Origin: Tautonia marina | GTDB lineage: Bacteria; Planctomycetota; Planctomycetia; Isosphaerales; Isosphaeraceae | NCBI RefSeq assembly: GCF_009177065.1 | Contig: NZ_WEZF01000016.1 | Location: 1 to 64,000, forward strand | DNA length: 64,000 bases | Reading direction: 5' to 3' | In this document: positions 18,799 through 52,253 of the stretch, in pieces | Layout of the letters: every line of letters begins with the position of its first letter | Numbering within the stretch: position 1 is the stretch's first letter | Program-made: the position numbers and the translations under genes | Notes under the pieces: generated by a model | The model's database searches: none | What the model was told of the DNA's origin: nothing | The model's input: only the letters and a program-made list of their open reading frames with translations

Positions 18799-19000
18799 GG
18801 ACCGTTCTCTCCGACCCGATCGACGTGACGGCGGCGGATCGTGGGTTCCTCTGGGGACCTGGGGTCTGCCGCCGTTACTTTGCGCAGCTTCGGCTCAAGC
18901 CGTGCGACCGGATTGACCGATCGAGTGGGTGATCCGATCGCGCGGTGGCACCAATGGCCTGCCCGCGTGGAGGGAATGGCCAAAGGTCGGGAGGAGTCCG

Positions 19001-21628
19001 ATGCGGGATCGCAATGGTAGCGGGTCGATCCGACGATGGCTCGGGGCGGGCAGCTCGGCTGTCGAACGACGGCGGGCGCGTCGCCCTCGGCTCGAAGGGC
19101 TTGAGCCTCGCCAGATGCTCGTCGCCTCGCTCAATCCGATTCCGAACCTCTCGGTCGCGGCCGACCTGGGCCGGGTGGTTCCGCTGGAGGGGGGGACCGA
19201 GGCTCAGCAGTTTTCGGTCACGTCCAGCAATCCGAATATCGGTGTCTCGGTCGTGGAGGGGTCGTTCCTGTCCGTGGATGTCTCGCACACGTCAAGCGGC
19301 TCGGGCGATCCGGCCTTCTCGGGAACGATGACGTTTCAGCTCTTTGACGAGCTGACACCCACGACCGTTGATCGGATTCTGGCGCTGGTGAACCAGGGGT
19401 TCTATACCTCGCCGACGACCAACCCCAACCCGGATTTCACGAACCTCCCGAGCAAGAATTTCCATCGGATCGCGGAGGGCTTCCCCGGCGATGCGTTCAT
19501 CGTGCAGGGTGGCTCGGCCAATGGGAACGGAACGGGCGAAATCAACCAGCCAGGCTTCCCGTTCGCCGACGAGTTCCTCGCTCCCCTGGTGTTCAACGGC
19601 CAGGGTCAACTGGCGATGGCCAACGCGGGAGACGACACGAACAGCTCGCAGTTCTTCGTGACCACGGGGTCTCCCCGGTTCCTCGACTTCAATCACACGA
19701 TCTTCGGGCAACTGGTCGAGGGAGCCGACGTCCTCGAACGGATGACGCAGGTTTCGCGAGACGCGAACGATGCCCCCGTCTCTCCCATCCTGATTACCGC
19801 CACGCGAGTCAGTGAGGCCAACCCGAACGGCACGTTGCTGATCAACACCACATCGGCTGCGGCAGGAGAGTCGGCAACGATCACGGTCACGGCCTCGACG
19901 CCGTCGGATGGCTCGACGGATGTCGAGACGTTCCAGGTGGCGGTGGTCGCCAACGCCGAGAGCCAGCGGCCCTTCCTCCGGCCGGTGAGCGATCAGATCA
20001 CCCTGCCGAACCAGCCGGTTCAGTTCCAGCTGAACGCCGTCAGCACGAACCCGGGAGCCGAGCTGACCTTCGCCGTCGGCGGTGGGGTTTCTCCGAGTGG
20101 AACCTTCGCTCCGGTCCAGAATGCCACGGCCACGGTCGATGCCAACGGGCTGGTGACCGTCACGCCTAATGCGGGATTTGAGGGGGTGATCGACCTGCTC
20201 GTCGGGGTCCGCGATCAGGTCAACCGCACCACCAATCTCAATGCGGTCAGCAACTTCGACACCGATCGGATCACGCTGACGGTCACGACCAATACCCAGC
20301 CGACGGCCACCCCCGTCTCCGTCCAGACCGAGCAGAACGATGCGGTGACCATCCAGCTGGCCGGGCAAACCGGGAACCCGGGATCGCAGCAGACCCTGAC
20401 CTACGAGCTGACCGGACCTCCGGTTCATGGCTTGATCTCCCAGTTTAACGCCCAGACCGGAACGCTCGTCTACACACCGTTCACCAACTTCCAGGGGAAC
20501 GACTCCTTCGGATTCCGGGTCCGAGACGTCGGTGATCCGACACCGAACCTGACGAGTGAACCGGCCGAGGTGTCGATTCTGGTTCAGGGGGGCGACCCGA
20601 TCGCCGTTCCCCCCACGGCCTCGTCGCAGTTGCTGACCATTCCGCCGAACGCTCCGGTCCCGGTCCAGCTCCAGGGGTATCCCGGGACGGCCGATGCCGG
20701 GCAGACCCTCACGTATGAGATCGACACAACCAGCACGCTGGGAACGGTTTCCAACTTCGACGCCGACACCGGCACATTGATTTACACGCCGCCGACCGGG
20801 TTTGCCGGGACGGACAGCCTGACCTTCTCGGTCCGTCAGATCGGTGAGCCGGGGTCGGGCCTCGAAAGCGATTCGGCGTCGGTCACCTTCACGGTGACCG
20901 GAGCGGTGACCACCGGCGCCGTTCGCCAGATCGGGAACGTCTTGCTCGTCACCCCACCCCCGGGCCGTTTGGTCAACCCAGACCCGAACACGATTGAGGT
21001 CAGTGTGATCGGCGGCCGGGTTTCGGTATCGATCAACGGCCTGATCGACACGATGCAGCCGCTGGTCAGCGAGCTGGAACGGGTGGTCGTTTACGGCACC
21101 AAGGCCAGCGACACGATCACGATTGCCCCGGATGTTCCCTTGCTGGCAACGCTCGACGGCGGCCTCGGCGGGCGCAACCAGCTTCAGGCCGGCGACCTGC
21201 CGACTCGGCTGCACGGCTGGTTCGGCCACAATACGCTCCGGGGAGGAGCCGCCCGCGACGCCCTGATCGGCCGGATGGGACGGGTGCGATTCCTGCCGAG
21301 CCCCGGAGACGATCTGGTCTTTGCTGGTGATCCGAACCTGTTCCCGCAGGTCGACAAACACGCGAGAGATCAAGGGATTCCCCCCACCGGCCAGTTCTTC
21401 CGGTTCGTCCGGGATCGCCTGGTGCCGGTGCCGACTCCTCCCCCGCAGGCCCAGGGCCGAATCGTCCTGCATCCCCGTCGGACGAACGTCACCATTCCCC
21501 AGTTCAACCTTCCCGAAGCGCCGGGAGGGGGACAGACCGCCGCGCAATCGCCGGCGATCCTCGCCGCCCAGCAGCGCCGGGCCGAACGACTCGCCGCGCG
21601 GCAGAACCAGGACAATCAAGTCTCTTGA
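19001..21628 (+). CDS. Exported LEPR-XLL cyclophilin with cadherin-like repeats
   Basis: The protein has 875 residues from ATG 19001 (GGGAGGAGTCCG upstream). The N terminus has the LEPR-XLL-type motif LEGLEPRQML at residues 31-40, after an arginine-rich stretch. Residues ~60-260 form a cyclophilin-type peptidyl-prolyl isomerase domain (FHRIAEGFPGDAFIVQGGS, then SSQFFVTTGSP and FGQLVEGADVLERM). The rest consists of about four tandem beta-sandwich repeats, each with a TPF/GTLxYTPxxxFxGxDSF ending and threonine/valine-rich strands. A hydrophilic C-terminal tail ends in ERLAARQNQDNQVS. It probably acts at the cell surface, isomerising proline bonds in exported proteins. Confidence 0.88.
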   Translation: MRDRNGSGSIRRWLGAGSSAVERRRARRPRLEGLEPRQMLVASLNPIPNLSVAADLGRVVPLEGGTEAQQFSVTSSNPNIGVSVVEGSFLSVDVSHTSSGSGDPAFSGTMTFQLFDELTPTTVDRILALVNQGFYTSPTTNPNPDFTNLPSKNFHRIAEGFPGDAFIVQGGSANGNGTGEINQPGFPFADEFLAPLVFNGQGQLAMANAGDDTNSSQFFVTTGSPRFLDFNHTIFGQLVEGADVLERMTQVSRDANDAPVSPILITATRVSEANPNGTLLINTTSAAAGESATITVTASTPSDGSTDVETFQVAVVANAESQRPFLRPVSDQITLPNQPVQFQLNAVSTNPGAELTFAVGGGVSPSGTFAPVQNATATVDANGLVTVTPNAGFEGVIDLLVGVRDQVNRTTNLNAVSNFDTDRITLTVTTNTQPTATPVSVQTEQNDAVTIQLAGQTGNPGSQQTLTYELTGPPVHGLISQFNAQTGTLVYTPFTNFQGNDSFGFRVRDVGDPTPNLTSEPAEVSILVQGGDPIAVPPTASSQLLTIPPNAPVPVQLQGYPGTADAGQTLTYEIDTTSTLGTVSNFDADTGTLIYTPPTGFAGTDSLTFSVRQIGEPGSGLESDSASVTFTVTGAVTTGAVRQIGNVLLVTPPPGRLVNPDPNTIEVSVIGGRVSVSINGLIDTMQPLVSELERVVVYGTKASDTITIAPDVPLLATLDGGLGGRNQLQAGDLPTRLHGWFGHNTLRGGAARDALIGRMGRVRFLPSPGDDLVFAGDPNLFPQVDKHARDQGIPPTGQFFRFVRDRLVPVPTPPPQAQGRIVLHPRRTNVTIPQFNLPEAPGGGQTAAQSPAILAAQQRRAERLAARQNQDNQVS

Positions 21629-22227
21629 TCGCGTCCTGACAATGACTTACGATCAATTCAACTGAACCGCGGCCGGGTCACCCGAATTCCCTCGGGCGAT
21701 TCGGCCGCGTTCGGTCGTTGACCGTTGCGTACGGCATCCTGACACCTCCTCTGATTCGATCATCCGTCCGTTCGGTGGTAGCTGGCCGACCGGATCGCCT
21801 TTGCCAGGCACGGTTTCCTTGATCCGCACCCTGAGCGGATCGCCCTGGATCCGTTGTTCGCGGGCCGCTTGTGACGTGCGCTCCTGAGGCCCTGAAAGTC
21901 TTGCATCGAACACCTGGCAAACCGTGAGCGATGAGAAATCGCTACCCTGGCGGAGCCCCATGTCTTAGGGTGAACTTAGGCTCGATGCGGCAATCTTGAC
22001 CTCACGGGGTGTCCCCGCTAGCATTTGATTGGATGCATGAATTGTGTCGTCCTGGAACTTTCGAACGGGGGGAGGAATTGGCCTCGTCGAGAATTGCGGT
22101 TTCGCTAGGATGATCGGGCGAGGTGGAGGACTCCGCCTGAATCTCGATGGCGAGGTGAAGGGATCGGCAGGCATGGCCGGAAAGAGGATGCCGGCGATGG
22201 CTCCGAATCGAAACGGGGGACGGAACG
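21629..22227. other. Gene-poor region upstream of the sigma factor gene
   Basis: I find no convincing coding frame. An imperfect GC-rich inverted repeat (CGCGGCCG... / CGGCCGCG) follows the stop of the cyclophilin gene near 21667-21706. The region from 21960 to 22100 is richer in A/T and is where the sigma-factor promoter should lie, but I see no clear -35/-10 pair. Confidence 0.35.
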
Positions 22228-23031
22228 GTGAGCGATGAGGTCCAGCGAAAGGCGCGACGGTCCTATCGCCCGGGAGTCGAGGGGCTGGAGGCGTTGCGGC
22301 TGCTGAGCGGCCTGATGACCTCGCCTCCGGCGGTCCCGGCCGAGCATGGGGCGTTGTCCGTCGCGGTCTCCGACCCGCCGCCGGTGTTCGAGCCGACCGT
22401 CGATTCGGACGCCTGGGACGCGGCGATCGACCAGGCCTTTTCGGCCGAGTTCTTCACCCCTTCGCAAACCGAGGCGGTCGAGGAGCACGAGCGGTCGGAT
22501 TCGGAAGCAATTCGAGGGGGGCTCTCGCAGCTCGATCGGTACCTGGCGCGCACCTGGATGCGGGCCGGCTTGCCTCCTCAGAAGCACGACGACTGCACGC
22601 AAGCGGTGTACGTCAGCCTCCTGAAGCAACTGGGCCGTCCGGGCTTCGATGAGCTGATGGTCGCCGTCGGGGTGCTGGGGATCCGGGAGGTCTTCAGCCG
22701 AGAGCGAGACGAGGGGACCACCTTCTTCCGCGCCATCGACGCAACCAAGAAACGAGCCCAACGCGAGCGCAAGCTCCGATCGCTCGACGATGGTCCGGAT
22801 GACCCTTCGGCCCCGTTCCGGGAACGGGACTGGGTGGAGGATCTGGGCGAGGCGATCGAACGGAGCCTCAATCCCCGGGAGGCGGACCTGATTCGGGCGA
22901 CCCTCCAGGGAGAAACGCCGGCCGAGATCGCCGAGCGCTGGGGAGTCGCTCCCAAGACCGTCAGCAACGAGAAATCGCGGGCCTTCCAGAAGCTCCGATC
23001 GTTCCTGAGCACGCTGGAGCCGGTGGCCTGA
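22228..23031 (+). CDS. Sigma-70-like factor with N-terminal LEPR-XLL-like motif
   Basis: The protein has 267 residues from GTG 22228 (GGGGGACGGAACG upstream). Residues 8-27 read KARRSYRPGVEGLEALRLLS, which has the arginine-rich lead and LExLxLLS core of planctomycete exported LEPR-XLL proteins, although this is a transcription factor. Residues 30-95 are an acidic, unstructured-looking linker. A sigma region 2-like helix set (LDRYLARTWMRAGLPPQKHDD) and a region 4 (LNPREADLIRATLQG... TVSNEKSRAFQKLRSFL) follow, so the sigma assignment is good. It resembles ECF factors of the group with long N termini. No anti-sigma gene adjoins; the flanking gene products are exported. Confidence 0.82.
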   Translation: MSDEVQRKARRSYRPGVEGLEALRLLSGLMTSPPAVPAEHGALSVAVSDPPPVFEPTVDSDAWDAAIDQAFSAEFFTPSQTEAVEEHERSDSEAIRGGLSQLDRYLARTWMRAGLPPQKHDDCTQAVYVSLLKQLGRPGFDELMVAVGVLGIREVFSRERDEGTTFFRAIDATKKRAQRERKLRSLDDGPDDPSAPFRERDWVEDLGEAIERSLNPREADLIRATLQGETPAEIAERWGVAPKTVSNEKSRAFQKLRSFLSTLEPVA

Positions 23032-23661: not shown

Positions 23662-25377
23662 ATGCTCGCCCTGCTTCGAGGTCCCTTGACGGGACTTTTC
23701 ATCCTGGCGTTGGCATTCCTGCCCGCCTCGCCCATGGCGGCGAACTCGGCGGTCGAGACCGAAGGCGTGGGCTCGATCGTCCGGCAATCGATCCCTCGAT
23801 CCGAGGCGTCGAGCACGGTCGAGCCGAGGACGCCCGAAGACGCTCTGACCGAGGCCCTGGAGCGGGAGCGTGCCCGGGACTGGTCCGGCGCGATGGACCT
23901 TTACGAGCAGGCGCTGGAACGCTGGCCGAGTCGGACGGACTTTCGCCACCGCCTGCGGCTCTGCCAGACCCACTACCGGCTCGGTCGTCGCTACGAGGAC
24001 CGGAGCTTCCGGAGCGTCCTGCTTCGACTTCCCCGGTCGGATGTGATGGCGCTTTATGAGGAATTGCTGGAACGAATCGAAATCGGCTATGTTGATCCGG
24101 TCCGCTTCGAACCTCTCTTGAGACACGGTTACGATAATCTGGAGGTCGCCCTGCGTGACCCGGTCTTCCTCGAAGCCCACCGCATTGATGCGTCGGAGCG
24201 GGCCGATCGGGTTCGGTGGCTTCGAGACGCCTATCGATCGCAGCGAGCGAAGCTTTCAGTGCAGTCCCGGGGGGACGCGAACGCCCAGGTCGAGTCGGCA
24301 TGCGACCTCGGCCAGCGGGCTCTGGGATTACCCGAGGCCGCCATCGCGCTTGAATTCGTGTATGGAGCTTGCGACGCGCTCGACGATTACACCGGCTGTC
24401 TCACGCCGGACAAGCTGTCGGATCTGTACGCCGAGATTGACGGGAACTTCGTTGGGATCGGTGTCGAGCTGAAACGCTCGGAGCGGGGGCTCTTGCTGGT
24501 CAACGTCATCCGGGATGGTCCGGCCTGGGAGGCCGGGTTGAAGCCCGGCGAGCAGATCGTGGTGGTCGACGGCCAACCGCTCGACGGGCTGAGCCTCGAC
24601 GCGGCGGCCGGCATGCTTCAGGGAGTCGAGAATTCCGGGTTCGCGGTCGAAGTGCTGGGGCGGGATGGCCAGACAAGGACGGTGGATCTGGTGCGGCGTC
24701 CGGTGGAAGTCTGGAGCGTGGAATCGTCGGCCTTGCTTCCCGGCGGCATCGGCTTCATCCGGTTGATCAGTTTCCAGAAGACCACCCTGGCGGAGATGGA
24801 TCGGGCGGTGGCCGACCTTCAGGCCAAGGGGATGCACCATCTGGTGCTGGACCTTCGCGGGAATCCCGGTGGCTTGTTGAATGTGGCGGTCGAACTGGCG
24901 GATCGGTTCCTCGATCGCGGCCGAATTGTCGCCACGAGGGGCAGGGCCCCCGGCCAGACGTTTGATTATCTCGCCTCGCAGGCGACCCCCTGGCAAATGC
25001 CGGTCACGCTCCTGGTCGATGGCGACAGCGCCAGCGCGAGCGAGATTCTGGCCGGAGCCTTGAAGGAACATCGTCGGGCGGTGGTCATCGGCGAGCGGAC
25101 CTTCGGCAAGGGATCGGTGCAGAGCATCTATCCGCTTCGGGCGGCCGACGCGGCGCTGAAGCTCACCACGGCCAAGTTCTACTCGCCGAACGACCGGCCG
25201 TATAGCGAGTACGGCGTGTCGCCCGATATCGAGGTCGCCTCGTCGGCCCGACCGGCGTCGGATCGGAGTGAGGAGGCCATCGAACCGATTCCGTTCGGTG
25301 ATCCGGAGCGAGACCCGGCGCTTCGAATCGCCATCCGGAGGGTGCAGGCCGAAGACCTGGCCGGAAACGCTCGCTAG
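23662..25377 (+). CDS. C-terminal processing protease (S41, CtpA-like)
   Basis: The protein has 571 residues from ATG 23662, with GGGAGGATCGTGGCCG before it. A signal peptide (ALAFLPASPMAAN) leads to a ~230-residue helical region with TPR-like pairs (WSGAMDLYEQALERWP). The PDZ domain is NFVGIGVELKRSERGLLLVN... GPAWEAGLKPGE. The S41 core has FQKTTLAEMDRA, LDLRGNPGGLL, the serine loop DGDSASASEILAGAL and the lysine loop GERTFGKGSVQ. The enzyme cuts exported proteins near their C terminus. It is followed by a beta-propeller gene 60 bp downstream. Confidence 0.92.
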   Translation: MLALLRGPLTGLFILALAFLPASPMAANSAVETEGVGSIVRQSIPRSEASSTVEPRTPEDALTEALERERARDWSGAMDLYEQALERWPSRTDFRHRLRLCQTHYRLGRRYEDRSFRSVLLRLPRSDVMALYEELLERIEIGYVDPVRFEPLLRHGYDNLEVALRDPVFLEAHRIDASERADRVRWLRDAYRSQRAKLSVQSRGDANAQVESACDLGQRALGLPEAAIALEFVYGACDALDDYTGCLTPDKLSDLYAEIDGNFVGIGVELKRSERGLLLVNVIRDGPAWEAGLKPGEQIVVVDGQPLDGLSLDAAAGMLQGVENSGFAVEVLGRDGQTRTVDLVRRPVEVWSVESSALLPGGIGFIRLISFQKTTLAEMDRAVADLQAKGMHHLVLDLRGNPGGLLNVAVELADRFLDRGRIVATRGRAPGQTFDYLASQATPWQMPVTLLVDGDSASASEILAGALKEHRRAVVIGERTFGKGSVQSIYPLRAADAALKLTTAKFYSPNDRPYSEYGVSPDIEVASSARPASDRSEEAIEPIPFGDPERDPALRIAIRRVQAEDLAGNAR

Positions 25378-46841: not shown

Positions 46842-47405
46842 GAGACCCTTTTCCCTCGATGCGAACTCATTGCAACCACGAATGCTCGGCACGATCGCCG
46901 GGCCGGATGGGCGGGCCGGAGGAAGACCGACCGCCCACAGGCTATCCGCGCAGCCAAAGGGCCTTCAAGACCACGGCGTCGGTCGATTGCGTCGCTCGGC
47001 AGGGCTCGGCATGATCCCGACAACCGGAACACCTTCACAGGTCGTCCGGCGCAACTTCAATCTTTAACGAAACTTGCGTTTGGAGTTCCTACCTCCACTC
47101 TTGTAAAAAGGCGGTCCCGACCGGGGGAAAATGCGTGCTGGGCGGCGGCGATTTCCTGGTGTGAAACCAGGAAACTCCGGGCCTGTATCATGATGAATGG
47201 CAGTAAGTTACGGAACGATCGCCAGAGATCTGTCACGACTCGAAAGATTTCTGGCACAGCCATTGCGATTGCTCTTGACATCTGGCAACGGCGATTTTCA
47301 ACCGCCAATGCCGCTCAAGACGGACGATCGAATCGCCAATAATTCTTCTATTCCGTGCCCTTCCCTATGGCAGGGACAGGGCTCAACCAAGACAGGGAGG
47401 TCTTG
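46842..47405. other. Intergenic region with a strong hairpin upstream of the CAP gene
   Basis: 564 bp without a credible gene between divergent phosphohexomutase and CAP genes. It contains a perfect 9-bp stem TTTCCTGGT/ACCAGGAAA (47152-47160, 47166-47174; 5-nt loop) about 230 bases before the CAP start. The GGAGG before the start is at 47396-47400. No promoter consensus is clear. Confidence 0.4.
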
Positions 47406-48857
47406 ATGGCTCGCCCCACGACGCGACGATCGCCTCGGTTGGAGACTCTGGAAGCCCGCAAGCTCCTGTCTGCCGACGTGACCGGCGAACAGCAACTGAT
47501 GCTGGAACTGATCAACGAGGCACTGATCAATCCCGAGTCGGCCGCTGAGCGGGTGGAGCAAGGGTTGACCCGGGGGGCCATCACCGCAATTACCCGGGAC
47601 GGCGATTCGGTTGAGTCCGTCATCTCCGACATTGCGTCCTCCGACTCCCGACCTCCGGTCGCCTGGGACGCTTCGCTCGCCGACGCGGCCAAGCGGCACA
47701 CCGAATACCAGATTCGCCTCGGCGGTCAGACCCACGACGGCCCCAAGGGGCTGGAAACCGCCACCGATCGAGTGATTGCCGCCGGATACGGCAATCCCGA
47801 TACCGTTGCCGAGAATATCATCTACGGCGTCGATTCTTCTGAACACGCCATGCGGGCCTTCCTGGCCGACTACGGGCCTGGCAACTCCCAGGACCCGCAC
47901 CGAGAGAACATCCTGCAAACCTCCTCCGACCGCAACGAGAGCCATCAGGACGTCGGCGTGGCCATCTTGCCGGTGGAAGTCTCGGTGGATCGATCCACCC
48001 CCTTCGGCTCTCCCACGCCCTCGACCGAGACGAAGCTGGTCGTTACCCAGGTCTTCGCCCGCAAGGAGGAGGCCGCCCCGAAGATTCTCGGCGTGGTCTT
48101 CGACGACTCGAACAACGACCAGTTCTATGATCTGGGCGAAGGGGTTTCCAACGCCGAGGTCACGATCACCAACTCGGGCACCGGCCAGTCGTCTCGCGTG
48201 ACCACCTGGTCGTCCGGCGGCTACCAGGCCGAGGTGACTCCCGGTGTTCACCAGGTCGAGGTCCGCGTGAACGACCGCCTGGTCGGCCGCCGAGACGTGG
48301 TTGTCGGTCGGGAAAACACCAAGATTGATTTCCGAGTCAACGACGCCCCCAGAACCGTCTTGCAGATGCCGGTGTCCAGCACCCCCCGATCGACCGCAAC
48401 CAGCACCGTCCGGCCCTCGGTCGCTCCCGTCGCTCAGCGAACCGTAACATTCACACCAGCCTCGACTCCGGCTCCGGCCCCTGCTCCGACCCCAGCCCCA
48501 AGTTCAGCCCCAACCCCGACCCAAATTCCGTCTCGCTCCCAGTTCACCTCGCCGAATGTGGCCACCCGAACTCGGGCTTCGGAGCAAGCTCCGGCCGCGC
48601 CACCGACCCTCTCTCCGGCGAGCCTCGACCCGACGCCGAGCAACGTCAACGTGATCTCCGCCTCCCGCGTTGATGCCCGGCCCGTCGCTCGGGAAACCCG
48701 CACGTTCACCAACGCTCGACCCAATCCTCCCGAACCGACCGAAAACTCCTCGGCGCTCACGCTTCTGAAGTCGAGCCTCAGCGGCGGCAGCGTCCGATCC
48801 TGGCGAATCGCCGAGGGTTCGGCATCCGACTCCACCCTGTCCGCGTCGAGCCGATAA
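47406..48857 (+). CDS. Exported LEPR-XLL protein with CAP/SCP domain
   Basis: The protein has 483 residues from ATG 47406, with GGGAGG upstream. It starts MARPTTRRSPRLETLEARKL and then LSAD, a LEPR-XLL-type motif. The CAP domain spans about residues 27-190: MLELINEALINPESAAERV, WDASLADAAKRHTEYQIR, HDGPKG, VAENIIYG and HRENIL. The histidine and glutamates of the CAP cleft are present. A Cna/SdrD-B-like beta domain (GVVFDDSNNDQFYDLGEG, VSNAEVTI) follows at ~215-315. The C-terminal ~165 residues are proline/threonine/alanine-rich and probably a flexible linker. It should be surface or extracellular; the role is unknown. Confidence 0.88.
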   Translation: MARPTTRRSPRLETLEARKLLSADVTGEQQLMLELINEALINPESAAERVEQGLTRGAITAITRDGDSVESVISDIASSDSRPPVAWDASLADAAKRHTEYQIRLGGQTHDGPKGLETATDRVIAAGYGNPDTVAENIIYGVDSSEHAMRAFLADYGPGNSQDPHRENILQTSSDRNESHQDVGVAILPVEVSVDRSTPFGSPTPSTETKLVVTQVFARKEEAAPKILGVVFDDSNNDQFYDLGEGVSNAEVTITNSGTGQSSRVTTWSSGGYQAEVTPGVHQVEVRVNDRLVGRRDVVVGRENTKIDFRVNDAPRTVLQMPVSSTPRSTATSTVRPSVAPVAQRTVTFTPASTPAPAPAPTPAPSSAPTPTQIPSRSQFTSPNVATRTRASEQAPAAPPTLSPASLDPTPSNVNVISASRVDARPVARETRTFTNARPNPPEPTENSSALTLLKSSLSGGSVRSWRIAEGSASDSTLSASSR

Positions 48858-49114: not shown

Positions 49115-51766
49115 TCAACCGCGCAGGAAGTCCTGAGCAAGCTCGTCCAACAGACTGCCATCGACCCCGGTCAGAACCGGAGACCGTCGGGAAGCCTTCG
49201 AGAGGTTCTCGTCGAACAACGCGAGTTCGATCAACGAGGACGACCAAGACGACGGGGCTGGTACTTCTTCGATGCGGATGGCGTCGGCGATGACGAACCC
49301 GTCGGCCCGGTTGCTCAACTGCACCTGGAGCACGCCCGAGGAAACAGTCACCACCCCCAGGTCCGCCCAGCCCGTCCCTTGCTCGGTGAACGCGCCGGGG
49401 GTCTGACGCTGATCGACGAGAATTGTCCGTTGCACCTGCCCGTCATCGAGCAGCCGGAACGGCGCGTTGCTCGCCCGGTTCGGGGACGCCGACCAGGTCG
49501 CCGAGACCCGATAGCTGACCCCCGGCGTCACGGCAAAGCTCCAGGTCGCCGTCGCCGATCCGTCGCCAGCACCCGCGTAGCGACTCGTCTGATCAAAGCC
49601 CCCCAGCACCGAGTACCGCCAGTAACCCACCTCCGCATAGCCGGATTGCGTATCGTCGAGCACCTGAACCAGGGGCGGAGGGGGGGCTGGTACTTCTTCG
49701 ATGCGGATGGCGTCGGCGATGACGAACCCGTCGGCCCGGTTGCTCAACTGCACCTGGAGCACGCCTGAGGAAACAGTCACCACCCCCAGGTCTTCCCAGC
49801 CCGCGCCTTGCTCGGTGAACGCACCGGGGGTCTGACGCTGATCGACGAGAATTGTCTCCTGCACCTGCCCGTCATCGAGCAGCCGGAACGGCGCGTTGCT
49901 CGCCCGGTTCGGGGACGCCGACCAGGTCGCCGAGACCCGATAGCTGGCCCCCGGCGTCACGGCAAAGCTCCAGGTCGCCGTCGCCGCGCCGTCGCCGGCC
50001 GCCGCGTAGCGACTCGTTTGATCGAAACCGCCCAGCACGGAGTACCGCCAGTAACCCACCTCCGCATAGCCGGATTGCGTATCGTCGAGAATCTGGACCG
50101 TCGCGGTGGGAGGGGCAGTCACCGTGACGGATGCCTCGAACTGATCGGAGGGGACCGTCCCGTTGAGACCATCCCGATCCTGGTCGACGAAGTTTCCGGC
50201 CAGGTCCAGGATTTTCGGGCCGACGACAATCTGGTAGGTGCCAACCCCGGCCGAGGAGAACACCACGTCGAACTCGCGGTCGGCCGATCCCGGGACCACC
50301 GAGACCGAGCCGATCGACACCCCCTGCCCTTCCGGACCCGTCAGTGAAAGCACGTCCTCGATCGTGAACGAATCGGGACGGATGGCCTCGCTGAATCGCA
50401 GGCGAATCCGATTCTCGGCGCCGGCAAGAGCCATTGCAGACTCGATCTGAGGTCCATTCGTCTCGCTCGTTACCGCGCGACCAAGATTTAAGCGTCCGCC
50501 TGTGATGACCACTCCGTCAAGCTCGGACAGCGGGTCGACGGTCGCCAGCACCTTGGCGATCACCTGGTCGTAAGACCAGTCCGGATGGAGGCCACGGATC
50601 AAGGCAACGGCCCCCGTGACGTGCGGCGCCGCCATCGATGTTCCAGACATGTAGCCATATGAGCCATGGCGGACGCTGCTCAGGATCGAGACACCCGGCG
50701 CTCCAAGATGGACGGTATTGACACCGTAATTCGAAAAACCCGCGATCTGGTCATACGCATTCGTGGCGGCCACCGAGATCAGGTTGTCGCCCTCATAATT
50801 GGCAGGATAGGTCGGGTTCAGGTCATTATTGGAGCCGTTGTTCCCGGCCGCGGTCACAACAATGTGCCCCCGCGCCCTCGCTTCGGCAATCGCATCGACA
50901 AACGCAGTGCTGTATCCGCCGCCGCCATAGCTATGATTCGAAACGTGTGCCCCCATCTCGACTGCATAATTCAACGCTTTAATGGCATTACTCGTGTAGC
51001 CTCGGCCAGATGAGTCAAGAAACTTCAATGGCATCAACTTCACATTCCAGTTCACCCCAACGACACCCAGCGCATTATTGCCGACCGCGCCGATGGTTCC
51101 CGAGACGTGGGTTCCGTGATTATGGTCATCTTGAACATTCGGAGAGTCATTCACAAAGTTCCAACCATGAAGATCATCAATGTAGCCGTTGCCGTCACTA
51201 TCCTGTCCGTTACTGCCGACTTCACCGGAATTCACCCAAAGATTCGGCACGAGATCGGCGTGGGTCAGGTCGATTCCGGTGTCAATTACCGCGACAATCA
51301 CGTCGGGACTGCCCGTCGTGACCGACCAGGCCTCAAGCGCGCTGATGTCGGCCCCTGGCAATCCGCCCACGCTCTGCCCCGTGTTATTCAACCCCCAGAG
51401 AGAACCGAACCGCGGATCGTCGGGAGACGCCGTGATCGAAACAACATAATCCGGTTGAGCGTAAAGCACCCGAGGGTCGCTTCGAGCAAAGGCAAGCGCC
51501 TCCTCAACCGAGCTTCCTTCACGGACCGGAACGGTTCGCATGCCGGGCACCAGGGCGCCTGCGAGATCATGACCTGAGGCTGCCTCGATCGCATCGGGGC
51601 GATAGCGAACGATAATATGCTCACTGCTGTACAACTCCTGTTGCGCAGGTGGTGCCTCGGCGACCGGCAAGGCGGCGCCGAGACTGAGCAGGGTTCGTGA
51701 TTCGAGCGCGTCGAGTGGAAGGAACTTGAGCGCAGAGCATCGTGTGCGTCGCGTGAAGCGGTGCAT
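49115..51766 (-). CDS. Exported LEPR-XLL subtilisin-like protease
   Basis: The protein has 883 residues from ATG 51766 (TTG 51802 is possible; no good ribosome site for either). The LEPR-XLL-like motif LDALESRTLLSLG is at residues 18-30. An inhibitor I9-like propeptide (residues ~45-105) precedes the peptidase S8 domain with D162 (AVIDTGID), H217 (NHGTHVSG) and S377 (GTSMAAPH). A beta-sandwich follows (~residues 440-540). Then come two almost identical 143-residue modules with DDTQSGYAEVGYWRYS and NRADGFVIADAIRIEEV, like the Golvesin/xanthan-lyase-type carbohydrate-binding fold. A short acidic tail ends it. It probably degrades or processes proteins at the surface. Confidence 0.92.
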   Translation of the reverse strand: MHRFTRRTRCSALKFLPLDALESRTLLSLGAALPVAEAPPAQQELYSSEHIIVRYRPDAIEAASGHDLAGALVPGMRTVPVREGSSVEEALAFARSDPRVLYAQPDYVVSITASPDDPRFGSLWGLNNTGQSVGGLPGADISALEAWSVTTGSPDVIVAVIDTGIDLTHADLVPNLWVNSGEVGSNGQDSDGNGYIDDLHGWNFVNDSPNVQDDHNHGTHVSGTIGAVGNNALGVVGVNWNVKLMPLKFLDSSGRGYTSNAIKALNYAVEMGAHVSNHSYGGGGYSTAFVDAIAEARARGHIVVTAAGNNGSNNDLNPTYPANYEGDNLISVAATNAYDQIAGFSNYGVNTVHLGAPGVSILSSVRHGSYGYMSGTSMAAPHVTGAVALIRGLHPDWSYDQVIAKVLATVDPLSELDGVVITGGRLNLGRAVTSETNGPQIESAMALAGAENRIRLRFSEAIRPDSFTIEDVLSLTGPEGQGVSIGSVSVVPGSADREFDVVFSSAGVGTYQIVVGPKILDLAGNFVDQDRDGLNGTVPSDQFEASVTVTAPPTATVQILDDTQSGYAEVGYWRYSVLGGFDQTSRYAAAGDGAATATWSFAVTPGASYRVSATWSASPNRASNAPFRLLDDGQVQETILVDQRQTPGAFTEQGAGWEDLGVVTVSSGVLQVQLSNRADGFVIADAIRIEEVPAPPPPLVQVLDDTQSGYAEVGYWRYSVLGGFDQTSRYAGAGDGSATATWSFAVTPGVSYRVSATWSASPNRASNAPFRLLDDGQVQRTILVDQRQTPGAFTEQGTGWADLGVVTVSSGVLQVQLSNRADGFVIADAIRIEEVPAPSSWSSSLIELALFDENLSKASRRSPVLTGVDGSLLDELAQDFLRG
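49254..50105. repeat. Tandem duplication of a 429-bp module in the subtilase gene
   Basis: The module starting at 49254 recurs 429 bp later at 49683 with near-identical bases (single changes such as cgtcccttgctc/cgcgccttgctc). 429 is a multiple of three and each unit encodes 143 residues, so the frame is kept. The two copies differ at few positions, suggesting a recent duplication or gene conversion. Confidence 0.9.
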
Positions 51767-52253
51767 GGTTGCAGAATGCCGTGATTGGAACAGGTGAATC
51801 AAGAGACGAAGGGGAGGGACGACTGGGAATGCGATTTCGTGTGTCTGGTTGACACATCCAAGGCGGTCGTCGTCGTGTTGCTCAGAACGAGCTTGGATTC
51901 GTTGATCGTTCTGAGAAGCTTTGAGAAAGTATCCGGAAACTTACCCAATCCCCCGCGCGCATTCCAGTCGAAAATCGCGTCTCATGTTGCAGGATGTCAT
52001 CAACCCCCTCGGACCGCGCGCCCGAGTCGTTCTCACCGCGCCACCTGGAACGGTTAAGCAACCAGCACGACATAACCCCAAAAGATCATGCGTGCACTCT
52101 TCGTTGGGTCCGATGGCGTTCCTCCGACCACGCAAGTGCCAGGAGTGACTCCTGCATCCTCCTGCTTCCCTCCCACGGCAATCCTCGCCATAATGATGGG
52201 CCTGGACTGCCGGAATGGCCCGATACTCGACACTGTTCCCTCAAGACACACGA
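51767..52253. other. Spacer between subtilase and IMPase-like gene
   Basis: About 490 bp with no credible gene between two divergent genes. The segment 51900-52000 is somewhat richer in A/T. No clear promoter is seen. The leftward gene has no good ribosome site, so its start is not certain. Confidence 0.35.

Follow-up and report, generated by a model that had tools for sequence, protein, structure and literature searches.

The question raised by this locus is what a motif of the kind found at the beginning of exported planctomycete proteins is doing on a sigma factor. The gene lies in a stretch of 64,000 nucleotides of Tautonia marina (Isosphaeraceae; contig NZ_WEZF01000016.1, positions 1 to 64,000, forward strand), which as a whole is called the window below. 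The excerpted text of PMC8567305 gives the LEPR-XLL consensus as RRLxxExLExRxLLA, after Studholme 2004, describes the motif as only thought to act as an N-terminal export signal, and places it in a planctomycete beyond the Isosphaeraceae, Tuwongella immobilis. The gene, its domains and its N-terminal elements are as follows:

22228..23031, plus strand: ECF-type sigma factor gene, 267 amino acids, GTG start
22252..22308, plus strand: LEPR-XLL-like N-terminal motif ARRSYRPGVEGLEALRLLS, residues 9-27, recognised by conservation, low dN and profile kinship; predicted helix at 15-29
22405..22452, plus strand: second conserved element, AWDAA[LI], residues 60-75, a predicted helix within the variable acidic linker
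22516..22788, plus strand: sigma-2 domain, about residues 97-187 (TIGR02937, alignment, model, Foldseek)
22822..23016, plus strand: sigma-4 domain, about residues 199-263 (TIGR02937, Pfam, model, Foldseek)

The frame had been taken for a sigma factor from its letters alone, and the domain searches agree. The 267-residue protein matches the NCBIfam model TIGR02937 with 43.6 bits, above the cut-off of 42.9, and Pfam finds a helix-turn-helix of the LuxR/sigma-4 type, with GerE above its cut-off and the region-4 models just below theirs. An AlphaFold2 model for which the window protein and 33 orthologues served as input (pLDDT 79 on average, pTM 0.44) and Foldseek give sigma-2 and sigma-4 with a short linker between them, and most of the top PDB matches are to sigma factors (SigL, SigK, SigH, SigW and sigma32). 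The best Foldseek E-value is 7.5e-3 and none of the matches reaches 0.001, which we attribute to the flexible two-domain arrangement. Helices are modelled at residues 15-29, with moderate pLDDT, and at residues 60-75; the model puts sigma-2 within about residues 92-187 and sigma-4 within about 199-263. Residues 30-95 had been described as an acidic spacer, and a variable linker is indeed found there, but it holds the AWDAA[LI] element, the one part of it that does not vary, with W63, D64 and A66 each at 90% or more in 43 aligned orthologues.

Sigma matches were obtained in 62 of the 99 genomes searched, namely in all 45 Isosphaeraceae and in 17 of the 54 genomes from other families. The N-terminus was readable and alignable in 43 of the family genomes; the other two (G012 and G024) gave fragments, which carry the motif too, one of them as LDALRLPS. 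Sixteen of the 17 out-of-family matches also match a group of sigma factors with a hydrophobic N-terminus, at E 2.8e-37 or better, and the remaining one, in G086, is weak; the protein search of the 54 genomes of other families gave no LEPR-headed sigma.

The N-terminal motif, RRSYRPGVEGLEALRLLS, stands behind a lead of arginine and lysine much as the sequence-only reading had described it, and the segment VEGLEALRLLSG takes up residues 17-28 (nt 22276-22311) after this lead. All 43 orthologues with a readable N-terminus have the motif: Y13, P15 and E18 never vary, and R11, E21, R24, L25 and L26 reach at least 90%. When four Tautonia genomes are compared, residues 11-27 have a dN of 0-0.058, the linker (residues 28-96) one of 0.15-0.52, sigma-2 0.02-0.13 and sigma-4 0.05-0.21; the basic lead (residues 2-10) is less conserved in sequence, with 33-89% identity. 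Judged by these substitutions, the motif is under purifying selection. The idea that it is a chance match, or the product of a mis-called start, was next to impossible to maintain. It is true that the motif is short, that the start is GTG, and that the start codons of several orthologues were our own pick among alternatives, but the idea is ruled out by the conservation across residues 15-27 in 43 of 43 orthologues, by the low dN, and by a strict sigma-derived pattern that matched sigmas only (31 matches in 1.1 million six-frame residues from 34 loci). The four Tautonia genomes share the protein start V-S-[DE], which makes a true start downstream of the motif, an objection raised in advance, very unlikely.

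The three exported-type proteins with which the motif had been compared do carry LEPR-XLL:

18929..21628, plus strand: upstream LEPR-XLL protein with cyclophilin and Ig/cadherin domains, motif at about 19067-19144; a comparison case, and a putative partner at most
47355..48857, plus strand: LEPR-XLL protein with a CAP domain, motif at about 47415-47495; comparison case
49115..51802, minus strand: LEPR-XLL protein with a subtilase domain, motif at about 51668-51715; comparison case

Two profiles were used for the comparison, A2 with 28 columns from 39 distinct sigma N-termini, and A3 from 36 LEPR proteins. For A3, 38 of 54 PF07595 loci matched the selection pattern and two near-duplicates were dropped; the pattern demands the Arg, which is therefore bound to be invariant in A3. 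Searched with A3, the window's own genome yields 30 or more LEPR carriers; the search is partly circular, as 18 of the 36 rows come from that genome. A possible start lies within 40 residues in each of the best 30 matches, and the most hydrophobic 17-residue window near the motif has a median of 0.88 and reaches 1.6 in only one of them. Among 20 of these 30, Pfam finds beta-propeller, beta-helix, cyclophilin, Ig/cadherin, FG-GAP, subtilase, glucanase, collagen, CAP and CARDB-type domains, no domain in eight, and a transcription factor in none. The carrier studied here is a sigma factor, and not a protein of the exported, surface type.

Aligned with hhalign, A2 and A3 come together in register with a probability of 93.6% and a score of 25.2, above all of 300 column-shuffled versions of A3 (14.0 at most) and the reversed A3 (5.0). 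When eight genomes of the family were searched with A2, the sigma ranked first in all eight, and 12 more matches came at E<0.01 where about 0.08 were expected. Of the 101 rows other than sigmas, we inspected the 22 whose loci had been retrieved, among them 11 of the 12 at E<0.01. In 21 of the 22 the E..E.R core of LEPR-XLL stands in an N-terminal-type position; RSRRNLRPGVEAVEARCLLSV is a case from the window's own genome. This figure is less biased than the Arg-requiring A3 set. A weaker test, in which hmmsearch set 30 LEPR N-termini against 376 neighbours, gave an AUC of 0.84 (0.88 with the 15 core columns) against a background that included two LEPR proteins, and column shuffles had a mean of 0.54, one of 60 reaching 0.83. 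The remaining N-terminus of the 22 inspected, RRAFRPALESMPTLALPG (L178, G030:C1:3084206-3084244), is a partial match: it has a sigma/LEPR-like beginning without the LExR...LL end, and is possibly a degenerate variant of the motif.

The layout had been called the same as that of LEPR-XLL, and this is only partly so. What agrees is the place, N-terminal behind a basic lead, the spacing E-x-[LM]-E-x3-L-[LM]-[SA], as seen in the hhalign alignment and the column counts, the register YxP..E.LE..LL, and the lack of a strong hydrophobic core. What differs, apart from the carrier and from Y.P being invariant ahead of the sigma motif, is the Arg of LExR, which is replaced by Leu, Val, Met or Ile in 42 of 43 sigmas and comes one residue later in 39 of 43, giving LEaLRLL as compared to LExRxLL. 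The sigmas have Ala before the Arg, where LEPR-XLL has Pro, Asp, Ser or Gly, and their helix is for this reason less broken. PF07595 does not match the sigma protein, but its cut-off separates poorly in this genome, since none of the 24 matches there passes the model's own cut-off. With the A3 profile the sigma has an E of 1.7, rank 53 of 62, next to the window's LEPR subtilase with 1.5, rank 51. Since A2 finds LEPR N-termini and the alignment score beats all shuffles, the sigma motif is, by these comparisons, a divergent LEPR-XLL-like sub-type; the shifted Arg, the PF07595 miss and the weak LEPR-profile score are why we speak of a LEPR-XLL-like motif and do not count it among the members. The suggestion that a sigma factor with this motif could prove LEPR-XLL not to be an export signal falls for the same reason, as the sigma alone, bearing a distinct sub-type, cannot show this.

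It is well possible that the likeness is convergence between two short segments of the type E.LE..LL behind a basic lead, with unrelated jobs, and that the motif of the sigma is a conserved helix for docking on a protein, be it core RNA polymerase, the sigma's own domains or an unlinked partner. This is the main and a serious rival to the reading that we favour below. It would explain the shifted Arg as a clean sub-type, the Ala and the less broken helix, and the weak LEPR-profile score, and it needs no other location than the cytoplasm, where every sigma works. It fits poorly with an alignment score that no shuffle matched, with the LEPR-XLL-pattern N-termini among the inspected A2 matches, and with the register and the N-terminal place behind a basic lead that both segments share. 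An amphipathic helix binding lipid is unsupported: the Eisenberg helical moment of the 11-residue core is 0.32 in 39 sigma sequences and 0.32 in shuffled cores, and that of the LEPR core is 0.17 as compared to 0.34 when shuffled.

The nearest other sigma factors give a further indication. A second ECF sigma that aligns over sigma-2 and sigma-4 turned up in 44 of the 45 family genomes, all except G039, where the profile of this sister group matches solely through the LEPR-headed sigma; nearest here means nearest among the candidates scored, at most 26 per genome. The sister sigmas are 28-36% identical to the query (19 proteins, from the family and elsewhere), and just ahead of sigma-2 comes a short stretch of hydrophobic residues, often with A-x-A behind it; MTRYLPSQRSSRNVMVAVVLGTALVATPAKAAVA is an example. 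The 17-residue hydropathy of this stretch is 1.38-2.11 in all 19, and 29 of 30 loci (a set overlapping the 19 proteins) have 1.3 or more, the exception being 1.24. The ranges touch, 1.38-2.11 in the 19 sisters as compared to 0.35-1.64 in the first 60 residues of the LEPR-headed orthologues. The stretch occurs in four families of the class (f1, f3, f6 and f8), and matches to the sigma itself come also from f2 and f5. With the sister profile, 103 of the 248 genomes of the class give a match, the 45 of the family among them. NCBIfam assigns three sister proteins to the sigma-70 ECF type, two above the cut-off and one below. The sister loci are L105-L124 (19 of 20) and L215-L244, the one in the window's genome being L115 (G000:C23:7432-7887); nearly all of the sister sigmas seen have a YCxxCW motif, and a Sec-like head on a sigma factor is an oddity in its own right.

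The nearest relatives thus bear a membrane- or export-like N-terminus, of another kind, at the same position, and this hints that the N-terminus of the LEPR-headed sigma may be about location. The sister's hydrophobic head is the strongest indirect argument for this, and its signal-peptide-like look lends indirect support to a tether or a pro-domain. That the protein is truly exported and has lost its sigma function is very improbable. The export-like N-termini of both groups could be read in this way, but the sigma-2 and sigma-4 residues are strongly conserved and the domains are still recognised by NCBIfam.

A sigma that senses the load of the export pathway is also conceivable, though unlikely. 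In such a scheme the sigma and the LEPR-XLL cargo would vie for the export receptor. While the pathway is free, the sigma would be retained, or else exported and so lost; with the pathway saturated or blocked, it would be active, a behaviour like that of mitochondrial ATFS-1. We consider it improbable, too, that the sigma acts as a decoy of the export tag, adjusting transcription through this competition, where the shifted Arg would permit binding without export and the sister sigma would do the same for Sec. The kinship of the motif with LEPR-XLL, the number of LEPR carriers in the genome and the sister's signal-peptide-like head, as a Sec counterpart, all suit a load sensor. Against it, LEPR-XLL is known outside the family, in T. 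immobilis according to the excerpts of PMC8567305, while the search of the 54 genomes of other families gave no LEPR-headed sigma.

The surroundings of the gene were compared in 35 loci. No neighbour is widespread; the neighbours vary by genus, and the top cluster occurs in 14 of 35. The map is rough, for in 7 of the 35 the simple gene caller overlooked the frame of the sigma itself. An operon or a partner gene was rejected on this ground. Pfam finds no anti-sigma among the four same-strand neighbours in the window. Directly downstream on the same strand, at 23662-25377, lies an S41 peptidase with a PDZ domain, the cluster of which occurs in 3 of the 35 loci. A comparison of the LEPR-XLL genes beside the sigma had also been proposed: a pattern scan finds LEPR-like genes in 6 of the 35 loci. 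In four of them (the window, L071, L079 and L080, which represent two lineages) the gene is clear and adjoins the sigma, and in L094 and L095 it is doubtful. We judged the adjacency as not significant. In L079 and L080 a long LEPR-XLL gene comes directly after the sigma on the same strand, and in Tautonia it precedes the sigma.

Upstream of the gene there is a predicted promoter:

21996..22024, plus strand: sigma-70-type (housekeeping-like) promoter TTGACC-17-TAGCAT, from a consensus scan, aligned in four Tautonia genomes

Sigma-70-type sites that match at 9 or more of the 12 positions lie upstream of 14 of 31 orthologues, as compared to 2.6 in mononucleotide shuffles, a count that covers 31 of the 35 loci and includes some closely related pairs. 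A promoter of the housekeeping type would fit steady transcription with control at the protein level. A second upstream block conserved in the genus, GGTTTCGCTAGGAT at 22098-22111, could be another promoter.

We favour, tentatively and with a probability of roughly 0.38, that the N-terminal segment is a LEPR-XLL-like pro-domain or localisation signal through which the LEPR-XLL machinery controls the sigma after translation. The gene would be transcribed from its housekeeping-type promoter, and the control would come later: the motif would dock the protein, on the cytoplasmic side, on the machinery that recognises LEPR-XLL, presumably through a shared receptor. Docked in this way the sigma may be kept off RNA polymerase, and it might be freed by release or by cleavage, by analogy with the pro-sequence of pro-sigmaK. 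We count in favour of the pro-domain the conservation and low dN, the LEPR-XLL kinship, the sister's head, the lack of a widespread neighbour and the sigma-70-type sites, and against it the shifted Arg, the A3 E-value, the PF07595 miss and a helical moment equal to that of shuffled cores. It also counts against it that LEPR-XLL is itself only a presumed export signal. The excerpts of PMC8567305 report several sigma factors in detergent-solubilised fractions of T. immobilis, which is compatible with a role in location but concerns other proteins. The observation is firmer than the sequence-only reading could have known, and the mechanism is what we infer from it.

Sigma factors with comparable beginnings are known. 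The pro-sequence of pro-sigmaK of Bacillus subtilis promotes membrane association and inhibits core binding, according to the title of a 1998 paper cited in PMC6242693, and PMC6242693 has the N-terminal segment bringing the sigma to a membrane protease. The likeness lies in a short segment at the N-terminus, ahead of the sigma domains; sigma class and sequence are different, and cleavage of the planctomycete protein is putative. Pro-sigmaE of B. subtilis is a further pro-sigma of the same type. In ECF36, according to the excerpts of PMC8999054, the ECF sigma is extended at its N-terminus by a part that is predicted to act at the membrane, but this extension consists of three to four transmembrane helices and DUF2275, unlike the planctomycete sigma, where Pfam finds no DUF2275 (E up to 1) and where the hydropathy of the first 60 residues, 1.64 at most across the orthologues, falls short of a transmembrane segment. 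The former groups ECF87, ECF88 and ECF89 are likewise planctomycete ECFs with N-terminal extensions, compared here by description only; the excerpted description in PMC8103513 reports them as experimentally unstudied and makes no mention of a LEPR-XLL motif. On this comparison, the protein is an N-terminally extended ECF, a known kind, with a LEPR-XLL-like head in one family.

The literature matches listed, which leave most subscription journals outside their scope, make no mention of a sigma factor with this motif. We know of no identified receptor for LEPR-XLL, and a related motif on a sigma factor would offer both a cytoplasmic bait for one and a reporter that can be read through transcription. 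The same question arises, on a wider scale, from the hydrophobic N-terminus that the sister sigmas have in four families of the class. The resemblance of the motif hints that gene control is tied to protein sorting in these bacteria, and if the motif does control the sigma, this would be a new coupling of protein sorting to gene expression.
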